DNA of 35,640 nt from Candidatus Poribacteria bacterium (GTDB taxonomy: Bacteria; Poribacteria; WGA-4E; WGA-3G), in contig JAJECK010000090.1 of NCBI GenBank assembly GCA_022822085.1, positions 1 to 35,640 of the forward strand, written 5' to 3'. A program made the position numbers and the translations under genes. The notes below the pieces were generated by a model. The model searched no databases. It was not told the DNA's origin and was given only the letters and a program-made list of their open reading frames with translations. This document shows positions 6,401 to 27,106 of this stretch, piece by piece; the stretch's first letter is position 1, and the number at the start of each line of letters is the position of its first letter.

Positions 6401-6763
6401 TCCCCCTTCAGAAGCAATACGCCAAAGCCATGCGCCAAATGCTGATCCAGCCCCGCTGGAATATAGGATATTTTCACCGTCAGCATCCCATCCGACGATG
6501 CTGGCGTTGCTGCCTTGATAGGTAAGTCTTTTTGCCTCACCACCGAGAGCGGGCATGATATATACTTCTGCTGGACCTTCTTCACGTCCAGCAAAGGCGA
6601 GATGTTCACCGTTCGGTGATAATTGGGGTGAACCTGTTGCCCCGAGGTTTGATGTTAACCTTCGGGCAACACCGCCACTGATTGGGACTGCCCATAAATC
6701 ATCTTCACAAACAAAAACAATGGTTTCATTAGAAATAGTAGGAAATCGATAGTATCCTGACAT
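3479..6763 (-). CDS. Tricorn protease homolog (S41 family, propeller plus PDZ)
   Basis: A 1,094-residue serine protease of the Tricorn type, which in archaea cuts proteasome products into short peptides. Residues 1-510 contain beta-propeller repeats with TolB-like L-S-P-N-G and W-S-P-D-G motifs. An acidic, Lys/Glu-rich linker (about 516-553) precedes the second propeller and catalytic part. The catalytic set is intact: Ser751-His752 (T-S-H-A-Y-E), nucleophile Ser975 followed by Asp976 (N-A-G-S-D-G-D), and Glu1033 (V-E-N-Y-G). The Ser-to-Glu spacing of 58 equals that of Thermoplasma Tricorn. A PDZ domain covers about 765-865. No signal peptide is seen, so it should be cytoplasmic. TGGAGGTG precedes the ATG. 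It is transcribed alone, toward the PIN genes. The protein family is secure; cooperation with the nearby proteasome is inference. Confidence 0.93.
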   Translation of the reverse strand: MSGYYRFPTISNETIVFVCEDDLWAVPISGGVARRLTSNLGATGSPQLSPNGEHLAFAGREEGPAEVYIMPALGGEAKRLTYQGSNASIVGWDADGENILYSSGAGSAFGAWLWRIASEGGEPQRLPYGPANHISFGDNGGVVLGRLTREPARWKRYRGGTAGQLWIDENGDGQFEPFTPVESNFTTPMWIDDRIYFISDHEGVGNIYSCLTDGEDMQRHTHQETYYCRSAQTDGRRIVYHAGGDLWIYELDNGTNNQVDIDFRSPRIQRQRKFVNASQYLHDWMPSADGRSITVTSRGKLFTMANWDGAVLQHGDRNGTRYRSPRWLNDGKRIVVLSDSEGEEALEIHTCDGSSEIRRLDELDIGHVRQFAVCPKGDDLKDQLLIVNQRFELLHIELETPGLRVLDKSVYNRIQGARWSPDGKWIAYSFPVTETTSSIKLCNVETGETTFVTQPEFKDFAPAWDPDGKYLYFLSRREYDPIGDALQFELSFPVATRPLLVTLQKELPNPFIPATPSPEDEKEKEKKENEDKDDEEKSDEKDDKSKEEEEKKKIKPINIELDGIEQRIVAFPYSHGMYGQIDGVEGKAIFTTYPVKHATNAPGEEEPSDKGKLHAYDFKEQKKEVLVSDIASFTLSRDYKTLLYRTGDRLRVVKAGKKVDEGQKDNKGGSNRHTGWIDLNRIRPSVIPTAEWKQMYREAWRLQRDYFWTEDMSDVDWEDVYERYLPLLDRVATRGEFSDLMWEMQGELGTSHAYESGGDYRSSPNYGQGFLGADFIYDPENNGYRITHIVRGDTWNERRDSPLNAPGINVRENDILLSIGGQQVRENVPPGELLVNLGGQEVQTTFKNASDGEKRVVTIKVLKSESDLRYREWVAQNRKYVHEKTDGKVGYVHIPDMGRRGYAEFHRGFLTEVSYPGLLVDVRYNGGGNVSQLILEKLSRRRIGYAVPRWGTPNSYPTASVLGPMIAVTNENAGSDGDIFSHCFKLMELGKLIGKRTWGGVIGISPHQGFVDGGSTTQPEYSFWFVDVGWSVENYGTDPDVEVDYRPQDYIAEGDPQLDKAIEILLQEMEENPPELPDFGDRPRLTLPTLPKVE

Positions 6764-6823
6764 TCACACCTCCAGAATTGGAATTAGTATTTCGTATATG
6801 AGAGGTTAAAAGTAAATATGATA

Positions 6824-6897
6824 GGCGAGGTGCCGAATTACATCAAATGATGGCAAAAGCACACATGACTTTTGCCATCATTTGATGGGACCTCGCC
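6824..6897. repeat. Long nested hairpin in the gap before Tricorn
   Basis: Positions 6841-6859 and 6869-6887 form a perfect 19-bp inverted repeat with a 9-nt loop. An outer pair, GGCGAGGT (6824-6831) and ACCTCGCC (6890-6897), encloses it. The outer motif recurs in the elements near 23.8 and 34.1-34.4 kb. It could be a mobile palindromic element or shape the Tricorn leader transcript. Confidence 0.75.
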
Positions 6898-6909
6898 CAA
6901 ACAGAGTTC

Positions 6910-6943
6910 ACGGTAAGGGTGATGTGTATGCGGACCTTACCGT
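6910..6943 (-). terminator. Possible terminator of the PPC/WD40/DUF1501 cluster
   Basis: ACGGTAAGG (6910-6918) pairs perfectly with CCTTACCGT (6935-6943). It lies 22 bp past the PPC-protein stop in the direction of transcription. There is no U-run, so an intrinsic terminator is only one reading. Confidence 0.35.
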
Positions 6944-6965
6944 TTGCTAAATAACCGGTTTAGTG

Positions 6966-9959
6966 TTAATTATCGTCTAAACTTGCCTGTTCGTCAGTAT
7001 TTGGAGGGTTTCCAAGCCAAAGTTCAACTGCCGGACTGCTTGCAATGCGACGATTTCCAACAGAAGCGTTAATAACGAAGGTATGAGGTCTTGTCTGCTG
7101 ATTTCCAATGAACGGATTTCGTCGTAATTCATCCCTTCCACTTGAAACGATATTGGGAACAAGTGTTATTGTCGCTTCGGATGTGCCTCTACGGAGTACA
7201 GTAGTTTCTCGTTGGAGTCTCACCCCAAACGGCAACCCGACAACTGTTAGGTTCATATTTTGCCTGTTTCCTCTGCGTCGATCAACCTTTACGGTAATAT
7301 CAACGGGGCCATCTGGTGTTACGATTACCTCATTGGGGGTTGCAGTAACGATGATGGGTGTAGCCTCCGTCACGCTCACAACGGTGCTCTGGCGTTGCAC
7401 AGTCTGATTATTGTTCCGAATTTGGTACACTTCAATTGGCGAAGCAGCCCGTCGTATCTGATGTCCAGAGGCTGTTGTGACGGTACCGACTACCTGAACA
7501 ACGCTATGTGCTAATTCAGCGTCGGGGGCAGCTGTAAGTGTTAGAAAGCCTTGATTATTTCCACCTTCAGAGAGGATGGAACTCTGGCTTGCTGTGATAC
7601 CTGGCGGAAGATTTTCAACGGAGAGTAGTATCGGTTCTGTAAATCCGACTCGACGCCGCAATGTAACTTCCATCAACACTGTCCCACCTCGCCCGATGTT
7701 CGGGTTGTCTGGTGTCACAGAGATAGCGAAATTTGGTACTGTTGGACGAACGTCTAAGTGGTAGACATAACCGTCGCCCCCCTTACCAGAGATGTCCTCA
7801 ACGCGGAGTGCATATTCACCCGGGCGCGCAAAACTGTAATCAATAATTGCGTTCCGTCTTCCACCTCTGCCAGCGTTATTTCTCAATACGCGACCTTCAT
7901 CATTCAATAAGGTAAGTGAGGGGCTCAAAGGTGAATTTAGTTTTTCTGCGGATAGATCGATGGAATACCCACCGATGTCAGCGAAAAATCCCCACGGTCC
8001 ATATCCGTTTGTAACCTTGACGAGAATTTTGTTTCTGCCTTTGGTAACTGGCAGCTCGATGACATCATCGCCTCGGTTCAGCGGTCTATGCACATATTTG
8101 CTGAAGATGAGTTTATCGTTGACCCAAATTTTAATCGCATCATCTGATCCGAGAGAAAGGATGTATTTCTGGTCTCGTTCAGACTGGAAGTAGGTCAAAG
8201 CATACCCCGTGACATCGTCTTCTGGGACGCTGGAGAAGACGTTCTCACCTCGGCTATTGGTTCTATACCATTTTATTCTCCGTCCCTCTTTTCCAACATA
8301 TTCTTTTTTAAGATCGATTTCAACTTCAGGGGGATAGACGGCATCGTAGCCTTTTTCGTCTGTGTTGTCGAAGGGGTGGATAACCCACCAGGGACCGAGG
8401 CGTGATCCTTCTAAAATGGTAAAGCGGTAATAGTCCACTTCTCCCGGTTCAGAAATACGGCCGCTGATGGCACCGGGAGTTGTGATTTGTTGTGCCGAAT
8501 CAATCCGTTTGGCAATCAGTTGTCCCATACGGACGACTTCCTCTCCAATAAATGCTATAATACGATCGCGCTCAGTGTCAGTAATATCAGCGTTTTCTTT
8601 ACCTGCCATACGGGTGATAGTATCTTCCCACTGTTCAGAAGTTAGGGCACGGTTATCTGGTGATCGGAGTTCATGGCATGCGGTGCATTTAGTTTGGAAA
8701 AGTATCGCAACCTCAGCGTTTTTTGCGTGCGTGTCGTTTCCGTCCGCAGTACCTGCGTTGTTTCCTACGGCTTCTATAGAACGTTCAATATCTTCATGAA
8801 ATTCGTTTGCAAAAAATGGGAAGATCCCATAAGGAGTACGGATTAGCGTAACACCGGGTTGTTGATTGCTCGGAAGTTGGACTTCAAATTCAGTTGCGGG
8901 TAGATTTTCACCACCAATTGTGGTTTTAATTACGCTCCCGATTTTCCCACCTGTCGGGTAAATATATGTATTGTAAGGCACAACCCCCATTGTTATTCTA
9001 TATACGGAATCTGGATTTCCACGATAGAGTAGATCACGGATACGGAGGTAATAAGTGCCATCCTCGGGTAATATATAGTCAATCAGCGGATCGAGGCTAT
9101 AAAATCCGTTGCTGCGTACGAGTTCTTTTCCTTGTGCATCAAAAAGTGTGATCGTGGGGTTGAAGAATTGCTGACTGATGTTGTTATATCGGTATGCTTT
9201 CACGTTGAAAACACAACGTTCACCTTTTAATCCTTCAAAACTAAAATAATCTTCATCCCCGCCTGAATTGACAACACCATTGACGATGGTAGGTATTTCT
9301 ATGGAAGTGGCAGCTTCCATGTGATTATTTGATTCGGTCTCAACCGTGTCGGCTACATCTGTGATTTCAAATGGCCATGCAGTGGAAGCCCCATTCTTAC
9401 CGACAATACGAATTTCTCGAACACCGATCTGAGCATCTGTGGCAATTTCAAACTCGGCAGTCATACCACCAGTTGCTTTTGCAGCGGACTTTAGGTAGTG
9501 GGATATTTTTGTTTGGTCCTCTTCACTGATTTCTGCCCCCTTATCCCGAACCATACGCTTAACGACTGCCTCCCACTGTGTTCCTGTCATAGAACGGTTG
9601 CTTGGAGAACGTAGTTCATGACACTGTCCACAATTTGCTTCAAAAACGGGTTTATGTGTTTCGTCAACTTCACCCCCGCCTACGTTGAGTTTTCCTGTAA
9701 TGCCGGGGTCGCCTTCAATGATAAGGGTGTGAGCTCCATCTAAATCAGAACCTTGAATTTTCACCTCAACGGTTTTTCCTGTTTGCGCCCCAGCGGGAAA
9801 GAGAGAATTCAGGCGTGGTGTGGCTTGTGCAAATAATGAAATCGGTGTACACATTAAAAGAAGTGTACAGAAGAGCGGAATATGTAATAAACCCCACCTT
9901 GATTGTAAATCGAGGCGTTGATTTAGACATGAATATTTTTTTTTCTTATTGACACGCAT
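6966..9959 (-). CDS. Exported PPC-domain protein with two cytochrome c motifs
   Basis: A 997-residue protein with an N-terminal hydrophobic export segment (about 25-45, cut probably after S-L-F-A-Q-A). Two c-type haem sites are present: C-G-Q-C-H (110-114) and C-T-A-C-H (425-429). Both are followed by the same pattern, E-L-R-S-P-x-N-R and then Q-W-E and R-M, so they look like duplicated mini-cytochrome modules. A pre-peptidase C-terminal (PPC) beta-sandwich covers about 205-325, a second is likely near 500-540, and Ig-like repeats fill the C-terminal half. It would act in the periplasm or on the cell surface. GGAGGT lies 8 nt before the ATG. It follows DUF1501 and WD40 genes on the same strand, an arrangement familiar from planctomycete-like genomes. 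Its exact function is unknown. Confidence 0.75.
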   Translation of the reverse strand: MRVNKKKKYSCLNQRLDLQSRWGLLHIPLFCTLLLMCTPISLFAQATPRLNSLFPAGAQTGKTVEVKIQGSDLDGAHTLIIEGDPGITGKLNVGGGEVDETHKPVFEANCGQCHELRSPSNRSMTGTQWEAVVKRMVRDKGAEISEEDQTKISHYLKSAAKATGGMTAEFEIATDAQIGVREIRIVGKNGASTAWPFEITDVADTVETESNNHMEAATSIEIPTIVNGVVNSGGDEDYFSFEGLKGERCVFNVKAYRYNNISQQFFNPTITLFDAQGKELVRSNGFYSLDPLIDYILPEDGTYYLRIRDLLYRGNPDSVYRITMGVVPYNTYIYPTGGKIGSVIKTTIGGENLPATEFEVQLPSNQQPGVTLIRTPYGIFPFFANEFHEDIERSIEAVGNNAGTADGNDTHAKNAEVAILFQTKCTACHELRSPDNRALTSEQWEDTITRMAGKENADITDTERDRIIAFIGEEVVRMGQLIAKRIDSAQQITTPGAISGRISEPGEVDYYRFTILEGSRLGPWWVIHPFDNTDEKGYDAVYPPEVEIDLKKEYVGKEGRRIKWYRTNSRGENVFSSVPEDDVTGYALTYFQSERDQKYILSLGSDDAIKIWVNDKLIFSKYVHRPLNRGDDVIELPVTKGRNKILVKVTNGYGPWGFFADIGGYSIDLSAEKLNSPLSPSLTLLNDEGRVLRNNAGRGGRRNAIIDYSFARPGEYALRVEDISGKGGDGYVYHLDVRPTVPNFAISVTPDNPNIGRGGTVLMEVTLRRRVGFTEPILLSVENLPPGITASQSSILSEGGNNQGFLTLTAAPDAELAHSVVQVVGTVTTASGHQIRRAASPIEVYQIRNNNQTVQRQSTVVSVTEATPIIVTATPNEVIVTPDGPVDITVKVDRRRGNRQNMNLTVVGLPFGVRLQRETTVLRRGTSEATITLVPNIVSSGRDELRRNPFIGNQQTRPHTFVINASVGNRRIASSPAVELWLGNPPNTDEQASLDDN

Positions 9960-10017
9960 CGAATAGTACCTCCAAAATGGGTGGAATTAAATCACAACTC
10001 CGCCCACAATAATTACA

Positions 10018-11073
10018 TTAGAATTCGTGGGTTAATTTATTGTCTTGAATATTCCAGATTCTCACTTTTCCATCGCGGCTTCCAGCAGCCACCTGAGTGC
10101 CATCAGGGCTCATCTTAACGGCATAAACGGCATCTGTAGGTTCGTTAAAGGTCCTTCGGCGGTTGCCCGAAAGAATATCCCAGATAATCACGGTTGAATC
10201 TGCACTGCCAGATGCTACAACTTCTTGATTGTTCCATACACCGCTATCTACACTATAGACAGCACCTTGATGACCATTAAATGTACGGACTTGAGCCCCT
10301 CGTGTGTTCCCGTCGTTATCTTGTGTTACGCGCCAAGAACGGACTGTGCTATCAGCGGAACCGGAAACAATTTGTTCTGTCCGTGTTCCATAAGCCAGTG
10401 AATAGACTGCATCATCATTACCATCAAAACTGACAAGCACTGTATAGGTCTCAGGGTCCCATACTTTTAGGGTTTTATCTTCACTGCCTGTGACAAAATA
10501 ATCGCCAGTTGGATGATAAAGTGTGCATAACACTCTACCGACGTGCTGCGTTAACCATTTCGCTTGATCGTCTAATGGCGTATCATCATCAAGATTGTTC
10601 AAATCAATGACGGCACTAAATTCGTCCATGCTTGCGGTGAGTAATTTCGCATTATTTGGACTGATTGCTATTGATTCGATGGTATCTGCATGAAGTTCAA
10701 ATGTGTTGATGAGTTCTTCCGTTGCAACATCCCATATACGGATTTCCCCGCTTTGTGCTGCCTGTCCACCGCTTGCGTACAACACTTTACCATCTGTGGA
10801 AAACTGGATGCATCGGACTCTGCCGACATGGGGTTCATAGGCGTGGCTCATTTTCTGTGTTTCTAAATCCCAGAGTTCCACCCACTGATATTTTCCCACT
10901 GCCAGTGATTTCCCATCCGGACTAAATTCAAGTGCCCAAATAGGCGATAAGGTTACCTCTTTTTTTTCTGAGTGTTCATCAGCTTGGATGAAACTCCCAA
11001 TCAGAACAATGATCCCAAACATTAGGACTGTGAATAAAGAGATCGTTATATATTTACGGATGATCATGTTCAC
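10018..11073 (-). CDS. Exported WD40 beta-propeller protein
   Basis: A 351-residue protein with an N-terminal membrane or signal segment (about 8-28) followed by about seven WD40 repeats. Typical blade ends are V-E-L-W-D, I-R-I-W-D, L-K-V-W-D, V-R-S-W-R, V-I-I-W-D and V-R-I-W-N, with S-P-D-G or G-S-A-D-S turns between. It is probably a periplasmic protein-interaction scaffold. The start is uncertain: GTG at 11073 or ATG two codons later (11067), neither with a strong ribosome binding site. It lies between the DUF1501 gene and the PPC/cytochrome gene on the same strand, which suggests a shared exported complex. Confidence 0.8.
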   Translation of the reverse strand: MNMIIRKYITISLFTVLMFGIIVLIGSFIQADEHSEKKEVTLSPIWALEFSPDGKSLAVGKYQWVELWDLETQKMSHAYEPHVGRVRCIQFSTDGKVLYASGGQAAQSGEIRIWDVATEELINTFELHADTIESIAISPNNAKLLTASMDEFSAVIDLNNLDDDTPLDDQAKWLTQHVGRVLCTLYHPTGDYFVTGSEDKTLKVWDPETYTVLVSFDGNDDAVYSLAYGTRTEQIVSGSADSTVRSWRVTQDNDGNTRGAQVRTFNGHQGAVYSVDSGVWNNQEVVASGSADSTVIIWDILSGNRRRTFNEPTDAVYAVKMSPDGTQVAAGSRDGKVRIWNIQDNKLTHEF

Positions 11074-11202
11074 AACTCATTATTAAGTTTGTGAGGGTAG
11101 GGACAACTGTGATGAGAAAATAGTAGAGGAATATAGTAAGATGTACATATAGTTCTGCTACTACAAGTCAAACGAAATGTCCCAACCTCAGTTAGCAGCA
11201 GA

Positions 11203-11240
11203 TAGCGTGAGATTAACACCTAACTGTTAATCTCGCGCTA
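11203..11240 (-). terminator. Strong hairpin after the DUF1501 gene
   Basis: Positions 11203-11218 and 11225-11240 form a 16-bp stem with one mismatch and a 6-nt loop, starting 24 nt past the DUF1501 stop. No U-run follows on the minus strand, so it may act as an mRNA-stabilising or attenuating hairpin between DUF1501 and WD40. Confidence 0.4.
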
Positions 11241-11263
11241 TAAGGATAGAATAGTAATTCTGC

Positions 11264-12577
11264 CTAAGCCAAAACACCTCGGATTGGGCGGCCACCTCGT
11301 GAGAGGACGATACGGACACCATCAGGTGATTCAATGCTCTGATTATAGTCAATACCGAGACTATGATAGATAGTAGCAGACAAATCTTCAGGTCGGACGG
11401 GAGTTTCAGCAGGTTCTATGCCGAATGGATCGGATGCGCCGACAACCTGTCCACCTTGAACACCGCCACCCGCTAACATCATAGAGAATACGCGTGAGTG
11501 GTGGTCGCGTCCACCGTTTCGGTTGATAACCGGGGTTCTACCGAATTCACCCATAGCAAGAACTAAAGTGCTTTCGAGTAAACCGCGCTGTGACAGGTCA
11601 TTTATCAGAGTCGCCATTGTCTGGTCAAATGCATTGAGTTTCCCCGGTAGTGAGGAGAAGATGTTGTTATGATTATCCCAACCACCGTTACTGACAGTGA
11701 CGAAGTTAACACCTGCTTCAACGAGCCTTCTTGCAAGGAGGCAGCTTTGTCCGAATGTGTCCCGTCGATATGCATCACGCATCTCTTTAGGTTCTTTTGA
11801 TAGGTTAAATGCAGCGCGTGCATCTTTAGAACTCATCAGGTTGTATGCAGCACTATAGAAGTTATCCATTGCTTCAACCTTTGGATTCCCTGCTTCATAT
11901 TTCTTGAATGCATTGTCAACCGCTTGCCGCAAGTTTTTCCGACTTTCAACGCGTTCATAAGTGACATCTTTCGGTGGCTCTAAATCACGCACTTTGAAAT
12001 TGTTGCTGGCGGGGTTGCCATCTGGTGAAAATGGATCAAGCGAAGCACCTAAGAATCCACCGCCTGCATAAGCAACAGGTGAGGGTATAGCGATATATGG
12101 TGGCAAAGCACTACGTTGTTCTTTGAGTTCTGCTACAACAGAACCGTGACCAGGAACTGCAAAACCGGGTAATGGCTGATAACCTGTTATCATATAGTGT
12201 GTGCCGCGTTCATGTGCAGCTTCAGGAGATGTCATTGAACGGATAATACACAGTTTATCTGCCTGTTTTGCGAGTCTGGGCATGTGTTCACTAATTTGAA
12301 TACCGTTGACGTTTGTTGATATAGGTTTGAACAGGCCACGTATCTCTTCGGGGGCATTGGGTTTGAGGTCCCACATATCCAAATGACTTGGGCCGCCACC
12401 TAACCAAACAAGAATAACTGATTTGGCAGAGGCAGGTTTGGCTGTGGGTTGTGCTTCAGCTTTTAGGCGAAAAAAGTCTGTAAGACCTAATCCAAAAAAT
12501 CCGAGGACACCAGCCTTTATAAGATCTCTGCGATAAAAACCTTCGCAGTCTGTGTTTGTACAGTCTCTTTGTGGCAT
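11264..12577 (-). CDS. DUF1501 family protein with Tat signal
   Basis: A 437-residue DUF1501 protein, a sulfatase/phosphatase-fold family common in planctomycetes and related bacteria. The N-terminus has a twin-arginine signal: R-R-D-L-I-K-A-G (from about residue 16) and a short hydrophobic stretch, so export of a folded protein is expected. Family-like segments are W-L-G-G-G-P-S-H-L-D-M-W-D, G-G-W-D-N-H, M-G-E-F-G-R-T-P and G-R-D-H-H-S-R-V-F. I placed the start at the ATG at 12577, which has AGGAG upstream; an in-frame ATG 27 nt earlier lacks this. No DUF1549/DUF1553 cytochrome partner is present; the downstream PPC protein with two CxxCH motifs may take that place. Its reaction is unknown. 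Confidence 0.88.
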   Translation of the reverse strand: MPQRDCTNTDCEGFYRRDLIKAGVLGFFGLGLTDFFRLKAEAQPTAKPASAKSVILVWLGGGPSHLDMWDLKPNAPEEIRGLFKPISTNVNGIQISEHMPRLAKQADKLCIIRSMTSPEAAHERGTHYMITGYQPLPGFAVPGHGSVVAELKEQRSALPPYIAIPSPVAYAGGGFLGASLDPFSPDGNPASNNFKVRDLEPPKDVTYERVESRKNLRQAVDNAFKKYEAGNPKVEAMDNFYSAAYNLMSSKDARAAFNLSKEPKEMRDAYRRDTFGQSCLLARRLVEAGVNFVTVSNGGWDNHNNIFSSLPGKLNAFDQTMATLINDLSQRGLLESTLVLAMGEFGRTPVINRNGGRDHHSRVFSMMLAGGGVQGGQVVGASDPFGIEPAETPVRPEDLSATIYHSLGIDYNQSIESPDGVRIVLSRGGRPIRGVLA

Positions 12578-13139
12578 AGTTGTTCTCCTAAAATGGGTTA
12601 GCAATTATCACATGTTGAACTATTTCTTACACATTACATCAGAGGATTTACCATGTTAATGATGCGGAATGTAGAGGGAAAACCTCCCTAACCGCACTTC
12701 ACGACTTAAATTTATTAAAATTTATTTAATTATATCCTATTAAAACGTTGATGTCAAGGGAAAAATAGATTAATGCGGGGTTATTTAGTTTTATGAATAT
12801 TTATTGAATGGGTGTAGCAAGGAGTTTATATCATATTAAGGAATTTCAATTTTAGTACTCCTCTTTAGTCCCGTAGGGACGATATGTGTCTAACCATCAA
12901 CAAACTATAAACATATCGTCCCTACGGGACTAAATACGGGGCAATATCAATAATCATGTGTATTTAGAGGTGTTCACAATACCCCAGATTCTTCCTTAAG
13001 TTGACACCTATGGGTTTCACAGGCTCAACACGACCTAAAAACAGTGCTACATAATTATATAGAAATGGTATTACTAAATTCGCATCCGCGAAATCTGTGA
13101 TAATCCGTGATCCTAAAAATACAAAATTGCGAAGATTGC
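12578..13139. other. Intergenic region with an inverted pair of palindromic repeats
   Basis: About 560 bp, AT-rich, between pafA and the DUF1501 gene. It holds the repeat pair at 12864-12934 and, near 13079-13114, a CGCGAAATCTGTGATAATCC tract of the kind found in dispersed intergenic repeats. The DUF1501 promoter should lie here but no convincing boxes were found. No gene was seen. Confidence 0.55.
12864..12934. repeat. Inverted pair of the 24-nt palindromic repeat
   Basis: 12864-12887 and 12911-12934 are exact reverse complements (24 bp), separated by 23 bp. Each half is itself palindromic around GTCCC-GTA-GGGAC. The same unit is found singly at 3264-3287. The arrangement resembles a REP-pair (BIME-like) unit. 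Confidence 0.8.
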
Positions 13140-14600
13140 TTACAATCTCTGCCGAAGTCTGAGGGTTTTGATCCATCTTTGTGCTTTAGGTACCGAGGTG
13201 TCGAAAGGTTCTTTCATTTCATAACACTCGGTTTGTCCGGCATAGATGTGGTGCCAGTCAACGATGCACTGCATTTTATGTTTTTTGAGGTTTCGCATGA
13301 GGTATCCACGAACTTTGGCACGAGTGTCGCGTGGTGCGTTGCTGATGGCATGACTAATCTGTTGGTCTGTGATGACGCGTCTGATACATCCTTCGTTTTG
13401 AAGTGCGTAGAAGATACCGTTATCGGGGTCAATATTGTGGTATTCTAAATCAATGCTTTTGAGCCACGGGTCATCCCAGGTGAGTTGTTCCTCTTCAATT
13501 AACGCCTCAAGAAACCATTTTTTTGCAGCCCAATCAATCCGGGTTGTCAGTCGTGTCCAATCAATTTCAAGGTCATCAAGTACAGATTCCCATTCAGTGA
13601 GAACCCATTCTTCAGTTTCGTTCAGTTCAGGCACCATTTCTCGGACAAAGTTTACATATTCGCGTTGAATATCAATAGCAGTGACAATTCTTCCATTCTG
13701 CATCTCGACATTCCATTCAAGGGTAGTATCTCGTGAAATATGTTTGATAGCAGCGATGGGGTCAAGAAGATCAATATTAAGGATCGGTAGTTTTTCACCA
13801 TAAATATCATAATGTTTCTCAATGGCATCCAGAACGAGAGCAGTGGTTCCGACCTTCAGGGCGGCTGCATATTCTGACATATTCGTGTCCCCGACAAGCA
13901 GATGGAGTCGGCGATATTTCGTATAATCACTGAGCGGTTCGTCTCGTGTGTTGATGATTGCTCGACTAAACTGAATCCATTCATATATTTCAGTGACGAT
14001 GTGGTCAGCTCTTTGTGATATTTGGTATCCTACAAAGTCGTCAACGCTGTATTGTCCATCGCCGAATTCAAAGATATCATCATATCCACCGACCCTGCCT
14101 GCGCCAGCGAAAATTTGCCGTGTTACGAAAAACGGCAGTAAGGTAGGAATAACAATTCTATAGAATGGCACATCGCGGCGTGCTTGAAAGTTTTCGTGGC
14201 ATCCGAAAGTCGCACCGGTGTAATGATCTATATTGTTTTTGTAGAAGGCGACGTGTGCGGATCTACCCGTTTCTTGTAGAATTGCTGTAATGACCTGTTC
14301 TATTGCCTTGTCATAGGCAATGAGATCAAGTAGGTTGGCACATTCTGGCGTGGCATATTCAAGGTGCCCCATATCAATGTAGAGCCTGCCACCGTTGAAG
14401 AGGAAACCACCATTGCCAGGAGGTTCACCCCAGTCACGATAATGGAGATCGGGAATACCGAGTTCAAGCACTTTGAAGGTATAATCTCTTACATTTGCAG
14501 CGACACCTTCAGGTGAAATCTTGATACGTTGCGTCTGCTCCGCTTGAGGCTGTATCAGGCACCCAAATTCAGTTTCGATTCCCATTATTCTGTATGTCAT
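13140..14600 (-). CDS. pafA: PafA, UBact/Pup-protein ligase
   Basis: PafA joins the C-terminal glutamate of the modifier to lysines of target proteins, using ATP. The 486 residues begin with the family signature M-G-I-E-T-E-F-G (6-13; metal-binding Glu9 and Glu11). The catalytic Asp76 lies in N-G-G-R-L-Y-I-D, followed by M-G-H-L-E-Y-A-T-P-E, where actinobacterial PafA has H-P-E-Y. Other shared blocks are Y-K-N-N-I-D, F-V-T-R-Q-I-F-A-G-A-G and N-M-S-E-Y-A. It lacks the long insertion after the first strand that marks Dop, which separates it from its paralog at 16502-18022. It is the last gene of the proteasome operon, 14 nt after proteasome alpha, with AGAGGA before the ATG. This order (modifier, beta, alpha, ligase) is the same as in actinobacteria. 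Confidence 0.93.
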   Translation of the reverse strand: MTYRIMGIETEFGCLIQPQAEQTQRIKISPEGVAANVRDYTFKVLELGIPDLHYRDWGEPPGNGGFLFNGGRLYIDMGHLEYATPECANLLDLIAYDKAIEQVITAILQETGRSAHVAFYKNNIDHYTGATFGCHENFQARRDVPFYRIVIPTLLPFFVTRQIFAGAGRVGGYDDIFEFGDGQYSVDDFVGYQISQRADHIVTEIYEWIQFSRAIINTRDEPLSDYTKYRRLHLLVGDTNMSEYAAALKVGTTALVLDAIEKHYDIYGEKLPILNIDLLDPIAAIKHISRDTTLEWNVEMQNGRIVTAIDIQREYVNFVREMVPELNETEEWVLTEWESVLDDLEIDWTRLTTRIDWAAKKWFLEALIEEEQLTWDDPWLKSIDLEYHNIDPDNGIFYALQNEGCIRRVITDQQISHAISNAPRDTRAKVRGYLMRNLKKHKMQCIVDWHHIYAGQTECYEMKEPFDTSVPKAQRWIKTLRLRQRL

Positions 14601-14614
14601 GGGTTGTTCCTCTT

Positions 14615-15385
14615 TTAGTTTGTATCGCGCGCTGCCTGAATTTCATCCTGTGTAAGAATACGAAATTTGGTATCTGAAGGTAGGGAAGCATCTAATATAC
14701 CTACCTCTATTTCTCCGTCTTCTAATTCTGTTTGAATTATTTCCTCTATCTCTTCATCTGTAACTTCAGTGTTGTCTTCAGCATCTTCAGAACGTTGACT
14801 TAATTCTCTACCGACAGCCCACGTTTTGAGTGCTAACTGAAGTGCGGAAGCGATATCACCATTGGTTTCACCTTGTGCAGCATCAAGATATTCTTGCATT
14901 GCATTTTCAATTTCCAAAGTGCCGCCGATAACTGCTGAGTCGTGATCTACTTTAACGTTACCATCGTAGTTTATATGTGTAAATTGTGTGTTTTCATCAC
15001 CGTTACCGATTTCAACGAGAAGCATTTTGATAATGTATGCTTCGCCGACAATCGCTTCAAACGCTTGTTTGAAGGTGTGTGCTAAAACATAATGGGTTAA
15101 ACGGTGTAGGTTTACATCTTCGGTCGCACTTTGGAAGGCTTGTACGCTGGCGGTGTCCGTCACAAGCATGCGGAGACGTTCAATGTCAGCGGGGTGACCG
15201 ATGGCAGAGAGTGCAATGCGATCATGAACTTCAAATATCTTTTGAGCACCTTTTGTAACAGTCAATAGGAGGCTGCCTTGTTCGTAGGGTAGTCCGACAA
15301 CAGGACTCCCGAGTCTGAGTTGGTCTTCAATATAGTCGCGCCGGTCCTGAATTGCTTCAATCCAACGATACGGCAGATCGCGCAT
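14615..15385 (-). CDS. prcA: Proteasome alpha subunit
   Basis: The alpha subunit forms the outer rings and gate of the 20S core. The 256 residues follow the bacterial PrcA pattern: an N-terminal helix with Y-R-W-I-E-A-I-Q-D-R-R-D-Y (6-18), G-S-P-V-V-G-L-P-Y (26-34) and K-I-F-E-V-H-D-R-I-A-L-S-A-I-G (49-63). There is no N-terminal catalytic Thr, as expected. The C-terminal 60 residues are strongly acidic, with several Glu/Asp runs, and may be a flexible tail. Its ATG overlaps the TAA of the beta gene as TAATG, so alpha and beta are probably made in equal amounts by translational coupling. Confidence 0.9.
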   Translation of the reverse strand: MRDLPYRWIEAIQDRRDYIEDQLRLGSPVVGLPYEQGSLLLTVTKGAQKIFEVHDRIALSAIGHPADIERLRMLVTDTASVQAFQSATEDVNLHRLTHYVLAHTFKQAFEAIVGEAYIIKMLLVEIGNGDENTQFTHINYDGNVKVDHDSAVIGGTLEIENAMQEYLDAAQGETNGDIASALQLALKTWAVGRELSQRSEDAEDNTEVTDEEIEEIIQTELEDGEIEVGILDASLPSDTKFRILTQDEIQAARDTN

Positions 15386-16242
15386 TATGTAGCCTCCGCG
15401 TAGCAGTCTTTTAAGAAATCTTCAGGGAGTGTTTGTACTCCTTGTTGTGTTATAGTTTTGATGGTAGGGAAAATCTCGGCTTTTGCGTTGTACCCGCTTG
15501 TCGCTGCATCGTATTCGCTTGCGGTGTCAAGGAGTCGTAAAATAGTGATAGTCGCTTGCTGTTGATCCATGTCTTCTAATCGAGATTCACCCCATCGGTC
15601 AAGGTAACGTAACACACCGCGTATCCAGATGGAACCTGAGCCGGTAGTGGCGAAATCCACGTTCTCAAAGTGTGCACCGAGTGCATCATAGAAGTAAATT
15701 TTACCGCCATGTTCCGATTCGTCTGTCTGTGGTGTATACAAAGCAAAAATAGGAATAACCGCGCCTATTCCCTGCATTGCCATCGGCAGATTTTCACGGA
15801 TAAGTCGGGAAAGGGTGCGGAGTTTTCCTTCAACGCTAAGTTCCTGGAGTTGGCTCCGCCTGAAATACTGGAATGAATGTTTTAAAACCCGTGCGATCTC
15901 ATACGCCATAGCGGGCGCGCCAGAGATAGCAAGAACGGAATACGTATCAATTGGAAGGACTTTCTCAGCACGGTCATGAACAACGGAGGTGCCTGCAGTT
16001 GCACGTCGATCCCCTGCGATGATTATACCATTGCTATAACGCATAGCGACAACCGTTGTGGCTTCGGGAATTTCCACCATTGTGCCGTGAGTCGCTTTCC
16101 CTTGCAATGGCTTTTTGGTGACTGGGAATATTTTAGGTGATGCGTTTCTATCAAGTTCCGATGATGCGACATCCATTTCATGCTGACCTTGCATGGTGTC
16201 TGCATGTTTTAATAAACTGAGAAAGTCACCTTTATGGTTCAT
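15385..16242 (-). CDS. prcB: Proteasome beta subunit with long propeptide
   Basis: The beta subunit carries the protease sites inside the 20S core. In this 285-residue precursor the catalytic threonine aligns at Thr62 (T-T-V-V-A-M-R-Y). Asp78 (A-G-D-R-R-A-T) and Lys94 (R-A-E-K-V) fall exactly at the +16 and +32 positions expected for Asp17 and Lys33, so the mature enzyme should be active and start with Thr62. The propeptide is 61 residues, similar to actinobacterial PrcB. The residue before Thr62 is Ala, not the usual Gly, and an H-G-T motif sits eight residues upstream, as if about eight residues were inserted at the cleavage site. Its ATG overlaps the UBact stop (TAATG). Confidence 0.93.
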   Translation of the reverse strand: MNHKGDFLSLLKHADTMQGQHEMDVASSELDRNASPKIFPVTKKPLQGKATHGTMVEIPEATTVVAMRYSNGIIIAGDRRATAGTSVVHDRAEKVLPIDTYSVLAISGAPAMAYEIARVLKHSFQYFRRSQLQELSVEGKLRTLSRLIRENLPMAMQGIGAVIPIFALYTPQTDESEHGGKIYFYDALGAHFENVDFATTGSGSIWIRGVLRYLDRWGESRLEDMDQQQATITILRLLDTASEYDAATSGYNAKAEIFPTIKTITQQGVQTLPEDFLKDCYAEAT

Positions 16243-16439
16243 TATTCCCCCGTTCTTTGACGGTATCGCCGGGATTGGTCTTTGTCAACGCGGCGCATAC
16301 GTTTCAGCAGTTCTTGAGTGTCCGGTCTGTTGACATCTGGACGTTTGGGTGCGTTGTTATCGTCACCATCATCACCGGGTTCAAACGGTTTTACCGGTTT
16401 CTGTTTGCGTTCGGGATAATTGACAATTTGGTCTTTCAT
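16242..16439 (-). CDS. ubact: UBact, Pup-like ubiquitin-like modifier
   Basis: A 65-residue, very polar, probably disordered protein that ends in Arg-Thr-Gly-Glu. It fits UBact, the Gram-negative counterpart of Pup, which tags proteins for the proteasome. Shared features are a charged N-terminus, a Pro/Asp-rich middle (18-40) and the block R-P-D-x-x-x-L-L-K-R-M-R-x-V-D (38-52) leading to R-Y-R-Q-R-T-G-E (58-65). The final residue is an encoded Glu, so it should not need deamidation before ligation by PafA. The start is well supported by AAGGAGA 8 nt upstream. It lies between dop and prcB, the position of pup in actinobacteria, and its stop overlaps the prcB start. Confidence 0.93.
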   Translation of the reverse strand: MKDQIVNYPERKQKPVKPFEPGDDGDDNNAPKRPDVNRPDTQELLKRMRRVDKDQSRRYRQRTGE

Positions 16440-16501
16440 CAGAATTTCTCCTTAATTGGCTTTAATATAAGCAATTCTATACTTAACCTCATATATAAAG
16501 G

Positions 16502-18022
16502 TTAATTCAATCCAAGTTTTTCAACGAGAGTTTGTGGGTTTGGGGATAAGTCAAGAGCTTCATTATATTTTTGTGCAATTTCAGGATTCGCGAGTGAGTT
16601 CATATTAACTGTAACGGGTTTTCCTTTGATGTCAAATGTAATGCTATCCCACTGCACTGTTTTAACTGAGTCTTCAAACTTGTTGAGCGACCTGCCACGG
16701 AAATAAGCACGCGTGTCAAGTGGAGGCGTGTGTATAGCAGTCTGAACTTGTTCGTCTGATATAATCCGTTGCATCTGTAACCCGTAGAATAAACCATCTT
16801 CAAGGTTGATGTTGTGGTATTCCAAATCAATGCTTTGCAGCCACGGGTCATCCCATTCAATGCCCTCCGATTCGACAAATGTTTCCAGCAACCATTTTTT
16901 GGCAACCCAATCTATGCGATCTGTAAGCCCCATCGGATCATCTTCAAGAGCATTGAGCGTTTCCTCCCACTCCGTCAAGACCCAATCTGTCTCATCATTT
17001 TGATGTGCTAAATGTTTCTGTGCAAGTGCAAGATATTCACGTTGATGATCAATTGCGGTCATCATCTTGTCATCAGCTTTTTGAATCATCCAGCGATATG
17101 TCTGATCATGTGAAATAACTTTGATAGTATCAATCGGGTTTGCAATCGCGAATGATTTCGGAATTAGCCGTTGTTCAATTAGATCTATGACAAGTGCGGT
17201 AGTTCCAACTTTGAGTGCTGTTGCGTATTCGGACATATTTGCATCACCGACAATGCCGTGTAGTCTGCGGTATTTTGCAGGGTCAGCGTGTGGTTCGTCC
17301 CGGGTATTGACAATAGGACGTTTGTGCATCGTATCCACACTCGCTTCTACATGGAAGAAGTCGGCACGCTGCGTCAGTTGATAATGTCCCGGTGTTGCAA
17401 GTCCAGCTTCTGTTTCTATACCTATTTTACCTGCCCCCGCAAATATCTGTCGCGTAACAAAAAACGGCAGAATACAGGATTTAAGGTAATCGAAAGGCAC
17501 TTCGCGTGCCATGAGATAGTTATCGTGGCATCCGTAACTATGTCCATAAAAATCAGTATTGTTTTTGTATAGAAGGACACGTTGTCCCAGTTCTTCACTT
17601 CGTCTTTCTGCACATTCTTGAAGTATTCGTTCGCCTGCTTTGTCGTGCGCGACAAGGTCAAAAAGGTTTTGACATTCTGGCGTTGAATATTCGGGATGCG
17701 CATGATCATTATAAAGACGTGCACCGTTGATTAGAATACGGTCACTTTTGATCTCACGAAAGGAACGTCCTGGTTGATCGGCAAATCGTTCTTTGTCTTT
17801 TTTTTCTTCCTCAACTTCGTCTGGATGATTGTTTAGATGCTCCGCTCGAAACCCGCGTTCATCACGAAATGGGTCTTCACCATCATAATCCCATTGCGGT
17901 AAAAATTTGTGGTCACATCGATAATGCTTGATTAACTCTATGGATTCCTTAACAGGATCAATCTGTTCAGCATTCTCAAGCGTAATGCCGTATTCGGTTT
18001 CGATGCCAAATAGTCTATGCAT
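16502..18022 (-). CDS. dop: Dop, deamidase/depupylase-type enzyme
   Basis: Dop removes the modifier from tagged proteins and, where the modifier ends in Gln, also deamidates it. The 506 residues start with F-G-I-E-T-E-Y-G (5-12). The long segment after W-D-Y-D-G-E-D-P-F-R-D (44-54) to about residue 88 corresponds to the Dop-loop region that PafA lacks. The catalytic Asp106 is in N-G-A-R-L-Y-N-D-H-A-H-P-E-Y-S-T-P-E. Further shared blocks are K-N-N-T-D, S-Y-G-C-H-D-N-Y-L and F-V-T-R-Q-I-F-A-G-A-G. Since UBact here ends in Glu, its main role should be removal and recycling of UBact. It is the second gene of the operon, 63 nt after the ATPase gene. The ribosome binding site is weak. Confidence 0.92.
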   Translation of the reverse strand: MHRLFGIETEYGITLENAEQIDPVKESIELIKHYRCDHKFLPQWDYDGEDPFRDERGFRAEHLNNHPDEVEEEKKDKERFADQPGRSFREIKSDRILINGARLYNDHAHPEYSTPECQNLFDLVAHDKAGERILQECAERRSEELGQRVLLYKNNTDFYGHSYGCHDNYLMAREVPFDYLKSCILPFFVTRQIFAGAGKIGIETEAGLATPGHYQLTQRADFFHVEASVDTMHKRPIVNTRDEPHADPAKYRRLHGIVGDANMSEYATALKVGTTALVIDLIEQRLIPKSFAIANPIDTIKVISHDQTYRWMIQKADDKMMTAIDHQREYLALAQKHLAHQNDETDWVLTEWEETLNALEDDPMGLTDRIDWVAKKWLLETFVESEGIEWDDPWLQSIDLEYHNINLEDGLFYGLQMQRIISDEQVQTAIHTPPLDTRAYFRGRSLNKFEDSVKTVQWDSITFDIKGKPVTVNMNSLANPEIAQKYNEALDLSPNPQTLVEKLGLN

Positions 18023-18085
18023 TTTTGTGTCTTTCTGTGTTCTATAGTATTAGGACAAATGTGATATGCCACTGCAAAAATATGA

Positions 18086-19861
18086 CTAAATAACCGGACT
18101 CGGAGTTTTACGAGGTTCTCTCTTTTCAGACTGAATAGGTGTAACTTTGACGACGTTCACCGGATCGTAATCTAATAGTTTGAGCCAATCCTCTGTAGCT
18201 TCTGTCGGTGGAAAAATATCATTTTCGCTAAATTCTGCTTGGAGCGCGTCTAATAGGTCGTCTATGTTTATACCTGTATCTGTCCCAGGGGCTGCGATGG
18301 CCCGTTTCATGGCAGTTTCTTTTGCCCTTTGAACAATAGACTCAATAATTGCACCGCTACAGAGATGTCCACGGTAGAGAATGTCGCGTCTCCCACTGCG
18401 GAGAGCAACTTCAAGGAATCGGTTTTCAGTTGATTCGCGAAACATTTCATCAATGACTTGTGTAATTAAGTTGTCAACAACCTCTTTGTCTGCAATTTCC
18501 CCAGGTTCAGTTTCAATCGGAAGATCAGGCGTTAGGTAGATGCTGAATATATCTTTAGCAGCTTCCTTATTTGGACGTGTTACCTTTATTTTTCTATCAA
18601 TTCGTCCAGGACGGAGAATTGCCGGATCTATCAAGTCGGGACGGTTCGTCGCCAGAATAATGACGACCTCTTGTAGGGGTTCAATACCATCCATTTCCGC
18701 ACAGAACATCGGAACTAACGTGTTAGAAATGCTGTGTGATCTCATAGCACGCCGCGTACCCAAGATAGACTCTGCTTCATCAATAAAGACAAAGGCAAGT
18801 TTACCTTCATCCCGTTTTTCGCGTGCAGCCAAAAAGATTTCTCTGACTTTCCGTTCCGATTCACCAAGCCACATATTGAGAATTTCCGGGCCTTTAATAT
18901 GTAGGAAAGTGCCTTCAATCTCTTCTCCTGATTCTGTCTTAAGACGTTCTGTTAGGTTGTAAGCGGTGGCTTTTCCAATAAGGGTTTTACCACAACCTGG
19001 AGGTCCGTGAAGCAGAAACCCTTTCGGTACAGTGTACTGAAACTTCTTAAATAGTTCCGGATGCAAAATCGGTTGTTCAATTGTGTCCTTAATACGCTGG
19101 ATAGTTTCGTCAAGACCACCGACTTTTGCCCACGGAATTTCTGGCACTGCCTCAAGCGCATAGTCGTTCCGTTCTTTTGAAGCAATACGTTCAAGGGCAA
19201 CCCTTAAACTGGCATCAAGACGGACTTCGTCGCCTGATTTCAACTTCACATCTGCTAAATCTGCTGCCCGTTCTATGATAACAGATTGTAGACTCGGTTC
19301 AGAACCGACCCGAAGTCTGCCATCCGGAAGCACATCCGCAATTGTTGCGATTGGGCCCGATTCATTATAACCAAGATCACCTACTACTACGAACGCTTCG
19401 TTCAGGAGGACGCTAACTCCTTTTTTGAGATTTTCCCTTTCCAGTTGTGGGTCAACATTGGCATAGTATTCCGACCCACCAACGGTGACGCGCGCGGTAT
19501 CGTCTTCAGGGACTGCCAGGAGAGTTCCAATACGGTTCGCGGGTGCTGTCAGTTTTTCAATTTGCTCTTCCATCTCAGTGTGGATACGCATTGCTTCTTG
19601 TTCAATCGCCCGGACTCTTTGCCGGAACTCGCCTTCATCGTTGATGATTTGACGTCGTAATTCAATAAGCATGCGTCGTTTCTGGTCTTCCACCGGAGTA
19701 TCAGAGATAATTTGATGGATAAGGTGTAAAGAATAGCCGGAACTCAATTCTTCTTGTATATCCTCAACTTCATCAAGGTCCAACTCATCCTCGTCTTCAA
19801 AAAATAATTTGTGATCATCAGGGCCAATGCCAGCATTGTTTCGGTTCTTCTTATCGTACAT
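18086..19861 (-). CDS. arc: ARC/Mpa-type proteasomal AAA ATPase
   Basis: A hexameric unfoldase that should bind UBact-tagged proteins and feed them into the 20S core. I chose the ATG at 19861 (591 residues) because GAGGAG lies 9 nt upstream; an in-frame ATG 102 nt earlier has no such site. In order: an acidic N-terminus (14-40), a coiled coil (about 60-105) for modifier binding, two OB-type domains (about 108-235) and an AAA module with Walker A G-P-P-G-C-G-K-T (286-293), Walker B F-V-F-I-D-E (357-362), sensor A-T-N (404-406) and arginine finger R-P-G-R-I-D (417-422). The C-terminus ends S-P-V-I, without the Gln-Tyr-Leu tail by which Mpa docks on the core. It is the first gene of the operon. 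Confidence 0.93.
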   Translation of the reverse strand: MYDKKNRNNAGIGPDDHKLFFEDEDELDLDEVEDIQEELSSGYSLHLIHQIISDTPVEDQKRRMLIELRRQIINDEGEFRQRVRAIEQEAMRIHTEMEEQIEKLTAPANRIGTLLAVPEDDTARVTVGGSEYYANVDPQLERENLKKGVSVLLNEAFVVVGDLGYNESGPIATIADVLPDGRLRVGSEPSLQSVIIERAADLADVKLKSGDEVRLDASLRVALERIASKERNDYALEAVPEIPWAKVGGLDETIQRIKDTIEQPILHPELFKKFQYTVPKGFLLHGPPGCGKTLIGKATAYNLTERLKTESGEEIEGTFLHIKGPEILNMWLGESERKVREIFLAAREKRDEGKLAFVFIDEAESILGTRRAMRSHSISNTLVPMFCAEMDGIEPLQEVVIILATNRPDLIDPAILRPGRIDRKIKVTRPNKEAAKDIFSIYLTPDLPIETEPGEIADKEVVDNLITQVIDEMFRESTENRFLEVALRSGRRDILYRGHLCSGAIIESIVQRAKETAMKRAIAAPGTDTGINIDDLLDALQAEFSENDIFPPTEATEDWLKLLDYDPVNVVKVTPIQSEKREPRKTPSPVI

Positions 19862-20340
19862 TGTGAACGTCTCCTCAGACAGATAGGGTGACTTACGATA
19901 AAGTGTACCACATTTACAACTTAATATGCGAATTTTAATACATCTTAGCAAATTATTCAACAATTTTGTTTTTTATAGTTATTGTTTAAAGTTTGCTTAA
20001 TTGTGGCAATTGTCATTAGTTTATCATATTTCTTACAAAATCTGCAAGTTAAATAATGTGAGCTCGGTGTATGAGGGACAATTTGTAAAATTTCAGAGTT
20101 TTCAAAAGAAAAGGTATGAATGCTTGGAAGAAGAAAATAAGAAAGGAAGGTAGGAACCCGCAGCCAAAAGATAGGCATACCGTTCTTAGTCCCACCGCTT
20201 GCAGGGGGTTGGGGCGGGTTAGGCAATTGTAGGGTGAGTCTCTGTGCTCGCCATTTCTAATCTGTTTAAGTCAAGAGAAATAAAAAAAAGCAGATACCCA
20301 AAATGGATATCTGCTTGTGCGTTAGAAAGATAAATTAGCG
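19862..20340. other. Intergenic region upstream of the proteasome operon
   Basis: About 480 bp between the ATPase start and the Cys-rich gene at 20341. The part near 19970-20110 is AT-rich and probably holds the proteasome operon promoter, but no convincing -35/-10 pair stands out. The stretch 20190-20260 resembles dispersed repeat DNA (G-rich GGGGGTTGGGGCGGG). A terminator for the neighbouring gene is at its right end. No gene was seen. Confidence 0.5.
20281..20315 (-). terminator. Intrinsic terminator of the four-gene membrane cluster
   Basis: Read on the minus strand, AGCAGATATCC pairs with GGGTATCTGCT around a short loop, followed directly by a run of seven or more T (20282-20288). It begins about 25 nt after the stop at 20341 and is the clearest rho-independent terminator in the window. 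Confidence 0.85.
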
Positions 20341-25369: not shown

Positions 25370-27106
25370 ATGCAAAATCAAACACCCGATTGGGTGAAGG
25401 TTGCAACATTAGCCGAAGTGCCTGAAGGCAAACCGAAGGCAATCAAGATGGGAGAAGGACGTAGTATTGCCCTCTTTAACGTTGATGGCAAGATTTATGC
25501 TACTGATAACCAGTGTCCGCACATGGGGTACCCATTGACCCGCGGCACAATCCGAAATGGTATTTTGACGTGTGATTGGCACCGCCGCAGTTTCGATTTA
25601 GAGGGTGGCGGTTGTTTCCACGTTGAATGTGATGATTTGAAGGTTTTTCCGGTGGATATCCGAGGCGAAGAGATTTGGATTGAACCTGGAGATATGATAT
25701 ATCGCCGTGCGGAAGAACACAAGCAACTGCTCCGCGAAGGTCTCTTGAGTGAAGACCGATGGACAATGTCCAAAGCAATCGCACTGTTACTTAAAGGGGG
25801 TGTCCCTGAAGAAGAGGTGATGGGCGCAATTCTTGAACACGTCGCCCGGCACATTCCCAGTGAACACGGGTCAGAAGGTGGGGAAGATGTCTCAAGACTC
25901 ATTAATGGCCTCAGAGTAGGCAGCCAGTATGAAGGTGAAGATAGACTGATCGCTGTGACTACCGCTGCATGTTCTGCTGCAGGTGAAGCACGTCAACGAC
26001 TTGAAGTCGTACCATTGCCGGAACCTGTCAGTTGGGAAAAGATTGAACGATGGGTACGCATCTTCTCTTATGAAGGACAAGCCGGACGCATTGAACGGTG
26101 CTTGTTCACTGCTTATCATAAAGGTGATGAAGACAAATTGCGTCCACTTATGTTTGAATGTGCTGTAGAACCCAACTTTATTGACAACCCGCAAATCCCA
26201 CTTTATGTGAGTTACCTTTCTGAAGTGGTTGATGAATTTGGATGGGATCGCACTGCGGACCTGTTTTTCTATCTGGGGGCAGACCTTATTGGGCATCATC
26301 CCGCTGATCCAGAACGGTATCGTAGAGATGCGATCAATCTGATGAGAGAGATGCTGCCGACTATTGAAAATGTTGCCTTAGAACGCACAAACAAATTTAA
26401 TGAAGATGCGTTTGTTGAAGCACTTACCAGTGTCGATCTCCAACGATCATTTGAGGAAGTTCAAGCGGTCCTGGTTGATGGTGTCAAGTTAGATAGAGTG
26501 ATTACTTCACTCGTCCTGCTTGCTGCAGATCGTATGGCGAATACACCTGTAAATGTAGATGCGGGTTGGTGGAACTTAACAATGGAACTTAACCTTGCGT
26601 CTGCTCTGAGAAGTGCACAACAGGTTGGTGGTAGCCTTGTCGCCGCAAAAGGTTTATTCCACGTTGCATGGCAAATCTTTGCTGATCGCTGGATCAATAT
26701 CACCTCACGACCGCTCAGTGAACCGCTGAGTGATGAAAAGTTGGATGTCGCTAATGAAGAAGAAGGCATCAAACGTATTATTGGAACAATTGAATCGCTC
26801 AATGTGCCAGATGTGGGACCGCAGGTGCTTGGTTACCTAAACGCTGGTTATTCAGGTGAGCGGTTGATTAAAGAGATCGGTCATTCTGTGCTGTGGGATG
26901 ATACGGGAAGTGAAGTGTTGCCGACATTACGCACCGTCCTTGAAGAATGGAAGCACGCCGATGGACATCCGGCACAACCTCAACTTCTTGTCGGTTTGGC
27001 ACGTTATGTTACGGATATCCGTTCCAATACAGATAACAAATCCGCCGCAACAACAGCGATGAATTTTGCTGAAGGAAGAACAACTATTGAGGTGTTTGAG
27101 GAGTAA
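25370..27106 (+). CDS. Rieske [2Fe-2S] domain fused to a large helical domain (copy 1)
   Basis: Residues 8-107 form a Rieske ferredoxin domain with both cluster motifs: Cys49-His51 (C-P-H-M-G-Y-P-L) and Cys68-His71 (C-D-W-H). It lacks the extra disulfide cysteines of cytochrome bc1 Rieske proteins, so a low-potential ferredoxin-like centre is likely. The remaining 460 residues are mostly helical and I do not recognise them. Blocks shared with the paralog at 29164 include A-D-R-M-A-N-T-P-V-N, G-W-W-N-L and V-G-L-A-R-Y-V-T-D. No signal peptide is seen, so it is probably cytoplasmic. AAGGAA precedes the ATG. The ankyrin gene follows after 6 nt, with its ribosome binding site inside this gene's end. 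It may be an oxygenase or reductase component. Confidence 0.8.
   Translation: MQNQTPDWVKVATLAEVPEGKPKAIKMGEGRSIALFNVDGKIYATDNQCPHMGYPLTRGTIRNGILTCDWHRRSFDLEGGGCFHVECDDLKVFPVDIRGEEIWIEPGDMIYRRAEEHKQLLREGLLSEDRWTMSKAIALLLKGGVPEEEVMGAILEHVARHIPSEHGSEGGEDVSRLINGLRVGSQYEGEDRLIAVTTAACSAAGEARQRLEVVPLPEPVSWEKIERWVRIFSYEGQAGRIERCLFTAYHKGDEDKLRPLMFECAVEPNFIDNPQIPLYVSYLSEVVDEFGWDRTADLFFYLGADLIGHHPADPERYRRDAINLMREMLPTIENVALERTNKFNEDAFVEALTSVDLQRSFEEVQAVLVDGVKLDRVITSLVLLAADRMANTPVNVDAGWWNLTMELNLASALRSAQQVGGSLVAAKGLFHVAWQIFADRWINITSRPLSEPLSDEKLDVANEEEGIKRIIGTIESLNVPDVGPQVLGYLNAGYSGERLIKEIGHSVLWDDTGSEVLPTLRTVLEEWKHADGHPAQPQLLVGLARYVTDIRSNTDNKSAATTAMNFAEGRTTIEVFEE

Follow-up and report, generated by a model that had tools for sequence, protein, structure and literature searches.

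Does the DNA studied here encode a complete UBact-proteasome route, and is that route the only one of its kind in the genome? The stretch that we analysed (the window, 35,640 nucleotides) is contig C126 of G000, a draft genome of 5.6 Mb in 158 contigs from Candidatus Poribacteria, a sponge symbiont. UBact systems have been deduced from genome sequences, and to our knowledge little biochemistry has been done on them. An initial annotation had described the window as holding a complete UBact-proteasome operon in a non-actinobacterial host. That description held for the window itself, but as a picture of the genome it was incomplete: a full Pup-proteasome operon is also present.

Gene content of the UBact operon

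All six reading frames (ATPase, Dop, UBact, beta, alpha, PafA) were found where the annotation had placed them, in one direction on the minus strand, and each was assigned by Pfam and NCBIfam profile searches (Table 1). Neighbouring genes are separated by no more than 63 nt and overlap by 1 nt at the UBact/beta and beta/alpha junctions, and the gene order is, as claimed, that of the actinobacterial operon. The modifier passed both UBact family cut-offs (PF20513, 67.9 bits against 27.8; NF033388, 75.3 bits against 35). Its C-terminal half is basic and ends in RRYRQRTGE, which contains the UBact-type tail read earlier; neither the Pfam nor the NCBIfam Pup model matched this tag, whose end is TGE and not GG[EQ]. 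The NCBIfam scores of alpha (TIGR03691), beta (TIGR03690) and the ATPase (TIGR03689) were under the curated cut-offs, and that of Dop (TIGR03688) was 490.9 bits against a cut-off of 492.3.

Table 1. Coordinates of the operon genes and of nearby pattern matches. Positions refer to the window unless another locus is named.
Feature	Position	Strand	Length	Profile matches and remarks
PafA-like ligase	13140..14600	-	486 aa	PF03136 (Pup_ligase) 2.2e-137
20S proteasome alpha subunit, divergent	14615..15385	-		Pfam Proteasome 2.3e-05; TIGR03691 4.3e-19; PrcA structures 1e-8
20S proteasome beta subunit	15385..16242	-		PF00227 7.1e-22; TIGR03690 2.1e-49
UBact modifier	16242..16439	-	65 aa	PF20513 6.2e-19; NF033388 75.3 bits
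Dop-like depupylase	16502..18022	-	506 aa	PF03136 (Pup_ligase) 8.5e-167; TIGR03688 490.9 bits
UBact-type proteasomal AAA ATPase (ARC/Mpa homologue)	18086..19861	-	591 aa	PF00004, PF17758, PF16450; TIGR03689 4e-135
Terminator-like hairpin	20288..20316	-		13 pairs, T run; pattern match only; would close a transcript upstream of the operon
Exact sigma-70 consensus TTGACA-17-TATAAT	12729..12757	-		pattern match only; precedes the next downstream gene (DUF1501)
Second complete operon (ATPase, Dop, Pup, beta, alpha, PafA)	L005 (G000 C95:50001-65000) 5505-12017	-		same order as in the window

The catalytic residues named in the annotation were all in place: Asp76 of PafA, Asp106 of Dop, the Walker A and B motifs of the ATPase (residues 286-293 and 357-363), and Thr62, Asp78 and Lys94 of the beta subunit. 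The last three correspond to T1, D17 and K33: a 61-aa propeptide precedes Thr62 as mature N-terminus, the alignment to solved mature beta chains starts at this residue, and the catalytic motif is conserved in an alignment of 76 homologues. The alpha subunit retains a Lys where its alignment meets QKISELYDR of M. tuberculosis PrcA, and this pocket-region Lys is conserved in the second alpha subunit of the genome as well. The ATPase has an acidic N-terminal region followed by OB domains and an AAA domain, with the AAA domain and both proteasomal-ATPase OB domains matched in Pfam; it ends in PSPVI, without a GQYL-like tail.

Which of the two Pup_ligase-family enzymes is the ligase was less obvious from profile scores, as the PafA-like protein scored almost equally against the NCBIfam models of PafA (359.6 bits) and Dop (357.3 bits). 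It has no Dop-loop, its Asp76 lies within LYIDMGHLEY, and its conserved alpha-loop, IVTEIYEWIQFSR, follows a pattern of its own, Y[EQ]W..F. At positions published as discriminating PafA from Dop (PMC7947786), some of its residues are PafA-like and many are of neither type. From its place in the operon, the absence of the Dop-loop and its clade (see below), it is likely the ligase. The other enzyme carries a Dop-loop, WDYDGEDPFRDERGF, with the conserved Trp, and about half of 20 discriminating positions are of the Dop type.

The hairpin upstream and the promoter match downstream, both pattern matches only, are consistent with the six genes being read as one transcript, and the promoter match suggests that the operon ends at PafA. 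Of 67 Poribacteria loci, 27 have homologues of the DUF1501 and WD40 genes close to the operon. Homologues of the genes upstream of the window operon were near it in none of the 67, and no accessory gene was found. Elsewhere in the window, two separate long reading frames (25370-27106 and 29164-30912) each combine a NirD/Rieske-ferredoxin-like N-terminus with several hundred more residues.

A Pup operon in the same genome and the distribution of both tags

G000 encodes four Pup_ligase-family enzymes, not two. The other three are 37-43% identical to the window PafA, and two of them belong to the second operon, on contig C95 (Table 1). Its tag is a true Pup ending in QRGGQ, and its ATPase ends in GTYL. 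Pup (TIGR03687), Dop, alpha, beta and the ATPase all exceeded their NCBIfam cut-offs, with PafA, at 519.6 bits, just under its own of 551.3. A RecA-like gene lies upstream of this operon.

The C95 operon is thus a close member of the actinobacterial Pup-proteasome type (Mpa/ARC, Dop, Pup, PrcB, PrcA, PafA). The window operon shares the gene order and enzyme families of that type, but its tag is basic and ends in Glu, its alpha subunit is divergent, its PafA and Dop are acidic and its ATPase lacks GQYL. It matches instead the UBact-proteasome system (PF20513, NF033388) known from Verrucomicrobia, Nitrospirota and others, in tag family, R-Y-R-Q-R-T-G-E tail, gene order and possession of two Pup_ligase-family enzymes, alpha, beta and ATPase. 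Nothing basic sets it apart from that system, except that sampled Verrucomicrobia lack Pup while the window genome has the complete Pup system.

When GTDB contigs were scanned with the window ATPase, the top matches were from Candidatus Poribacteria, at up to 94% identity, which bears out the non-actinobacterial host; Verrucomicrobia, Nitrospiria and a few others followed at 53-58%. The annotation had made its reading depend in part on conservation of UBact among relatives. In a sample of 71 Poribacteria genomes of at least 85% completeness, UBact is present in 64 and Pup in 68; 63 genomes have the two together, and two deep members lack both. Among 296 Nitrospirota genomes, UBact occurs in 103, Pup in 140 and both in 100 (the overlaps in both phyla were tallied by hand from lists). 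By contrast with these two phyla, UBact exceeded the cut-off in 8 of 241 Verrucomicrobiota genomes and no credible Pup was found in any of the 241; one match, in G440, was rejected as spurious because it sits within a 963-aa frame. Of 22 genomes reached through UBact-type ATPase loci, 19 lack Pup, 16 of them Verrucomicrobia-type; Pup occurs in the remaining three, one from Nitrospiria and two from Poribacteria.

The count of Pup_ligase-family enzymes tracks that of tags: genomes with both tags have four, most genomes with a single tag have two, and those without tags have none. G022, G051 and G236 are among the exceptions; in these, a tag could have been overlooked or lost. We went through the whole operons of several Poribacteria relatives and of one Nitrospirota genome, G069, which has both complete. 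In five near-closed Nitrospirota genomes (loci L187, L189, L191, L193 and L195 compared with L198, L203, L204, L215 and L217), the UBact operon is intact, but within ~7 kb of pup there is no other gene of its set; the Pup-side Dop/PafA/proteasome operon is 44 kb to 1.4 Mb away, so that neighbourhood searches would miss pup.

In Candidatus Poribacteria KatS3mg115 (L149, 12970-14237) the UBact-side PafA is broken over several frames, by decay or assembly error, and the remaining UBact genes are uninterrupted or almost so. Another Poribacteria genome, G393, carries two Pup genes, on C56 and C184.

Phylogeny, selection and set-specific signatures

We built a maximum-likelihood tree of 63 PafA and Dop proteins. 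It contains four clades: UBact-PafA (support 100/100), Pup-PafA (100/99), Pup-Dop (97/91) and UBact-Dop (98/93). C. glutamicum falls in Pup-PafA, and A. cellulolyticus and M. tuberculosis, solved Dop proteins included, in Pup-Dop. The UBact-PafA and UBact-Dop clades each contain Poribacteria, Nitrospirota and Verrucomicrobia, so the grouping of PafA and Dop, the other point on which the annotation had rested its reading, came out as well-supported clades of the Pup-ligase family shared with UBact enzymes of the latter two phyla. Poribacteria UBact enzymes cluster with UBact enzymes of other phyla and not with the Pup enzymes of their own genomes, which rules out a recent duplication within Poribacteria as the source of the two sets. 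Branching within both sets largely mirrors the Poribacteria families. Together, the grouping by set and the family-like branching indicate that both sets are old, and vertical inheritance of both within Poribacteria is the most likely history. The tree supports the four clades themselves and not their branching order, and PafA is used here for the window enzyme as a name, with no claim of orthology to canonical PafA.

Both operons are also kept by purifying selection. Between the window genome and G010, its closest single-contig genome, dN/dS over the twelve genes is low: the UBact operon has values of 0.05-0.12 and the Pup operon values of 0.02-0.16. Dozens of relatives repeat the gene order and sequences of the window operon, and this recurrence, with the dN/dS values, excludes a chance origin. 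In the same comparison dS was 0.26 for the UBact gene and 0.21 for the Pup gene (L005 8394-8591), against 0.54-0.86 for the other ten genes; as both tag genes are short, the lower values are possibly noise.

The two sets differ in charge. In Poribacteria, the net charge per 100 residues is +9.5 for UBact and -29.5 for Pup, and that of PafA is -5.3 on the UBact side and +0.1 on the Pup side. The corresponding gap for Dop is small (-5.1 and -2.6), and the proteasome subunits, taken as controls, differ little (alpha, -7.1 and -6.9; beta, -3.0 and -2.1). Summed over 425 shared columns, the charge is -25.8 for UBact PafA and -17.4 for UBact Dop, against -2.2 and -4.7 for their Pup counterparts. A strict single-site charge swap was rejected: few columns reverse in both enzymes, and the signal is mostly one of whole-protein acidity. 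The acidic columns correspond to positions 342, 375, 377, 392 and 397 of A. cellulolyticus Dop. Over the 75 residues that precede the OB fold, ATPases of the UBact set have a mean charge of -7.0 and those of the Pup set one of -0.2. Outside Poribacteria the charge gap of the ATPase disappears or reverses, on few sequences.

The ATPase tails also separate the sets. All 80 distinct UBact-type tails end in -[VI][VI], and all 11 Pup-type tails in -Gx[YF][LF]. Further Nitrospirota loci fit this rule, with one exception, the UBact ATPase of G100 (L219), which ends in QIE. Core opening in M. tuberculosis depends on the GQYL tail of Mpa (PMC8142254).

Two probable tagging pathways in one cell

We consider it probable that a working UBact-proteasome pathway operates beside a complete Pup-proteasome pathway in one cell, and that the two are kept apart. 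From gene content, conservation, phylogeny, selection, residues, charge and tails, we infer that each step would be active and that there would be two separate core particles with insulation between them. On the UBact side, PafA would use ATP to attach UBact, by its C-terminal glutamate, to target lysines; because UBact already ends in Glu, its deamidation would be unneeded. Dop would take UBact off again. The UBact ATPase would recognise the tag through its N-terminal region, unfold the target and feed it into its own alpha/beta core, where the beta subunits would cleave with Thr62. The C95 operon would provide an equivalent route with Pup, in which Dop would first have to deamidate Pup, since this tag ends in Gln. 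Insulation would come from two sources: the tags have opposite charges, with the UBact enzymes more acidic to match, and the two ATPases would dock by different C-terminal tails. The charge and tail signatures fit two insulated pathways with a proteasome each, as agreement and not as proof.

More tentatively, and with somewhat less than even confidence, we extend this reading to Poribacteria and Nitrospirota as a whole: both phyla may have two insulated pathways with tag and enzyme charge swapped, in which the UBact ATPase docks to a 20S core of its own by an aliphatic tail of two residues, -[VI][VI], not described before, in place of GQYL/HbYX. Dual genomes make the question of interchangeable or separate systems directly testable, as two each of the tags, ligases, depupylases, ATPases and cores can be taken from one organism. 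If the pathways are insulated, they would form a natural orthogonal pair of bacterial protein-degradation tags, useful in engineering, and docking by -[VI][VI] would be a new mode of ATPase engagement with the 20S proteasome.

Could both tags instead be served by one shared machine? Either enzyme pair, ATPase and core would then handle UBact and Pup alike, and the second operon would serve dosage or stress-specific expression. The homologous enzymes, their conserved catalytic residues, the identical gene order and the pocket-region Lys retained in both alpha subunits would all suit such an arrangement. We nevertheless think it unlikely, given that the tags are unlike in charge and sequence, that enzyme charge matches the tag, that ATPase tails are set-specific across phyla, and that the other three enzymes are so distant from the window PafA and lie in separate clades.

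It is less probable still that the window holds an ordinary, vertically inherited UBact operon whose coexistence with Pup is functionally meaningless. A lone UBact locus is of an already known kind, catalogued as Pfam UBact and NCBIfam NF033388. Pup had been reported beyond the actinobacteria by 2008 (PMC2588565), and two pupylation systems in Leptospirillum ferrooxidans, L1 and L2, were noted in 2012 in a figure legend (Fig. 2 of PMC3511204): two entire systems with the same order and very different sequence, one of them with a tag lacking the terminal GGE. That legend is a passing mention of one Nitrospirota species, and the passage contains neither signatures nor a wider distribution. In the open literature, with the original UBact paper outside the search, we found no report of coexistence across a phylum, of the charge pattern or of the ATPase tail, and nothing on dual systems in work on Poribacteria with pupylation, UBact or a proteasome. 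Against a meaningless coexistence stand the phylum-wide retention of both operons under purifying selection and the finding that 100 of the 103 Nitrospirota genomes with UBact have Pup too, which speak for use of both.

That the second operon entered this metagenome-assembled genome by a binning error is hardly credible: G000 is a draft whose operons are on separate contigs, with GC of 0.44 and 0.40, but the nearest relative of both the C95 and the window enzymes is the same genome, G010, and in six single-contig Poribacteria genomes (G010, G024, G044, G394, G395 and G396) both tags are on that one contig, which rules out mis-binning as a general cause and refutes it for the clade.

The UBact tail is the same across relatives except at three loci, L011 and L018 in Poribacteria (G056 and G057) and L188 in Nitrospirota (G364), where UBact ends in RTGQ and not RTGE; in these, deamidation would be needed.
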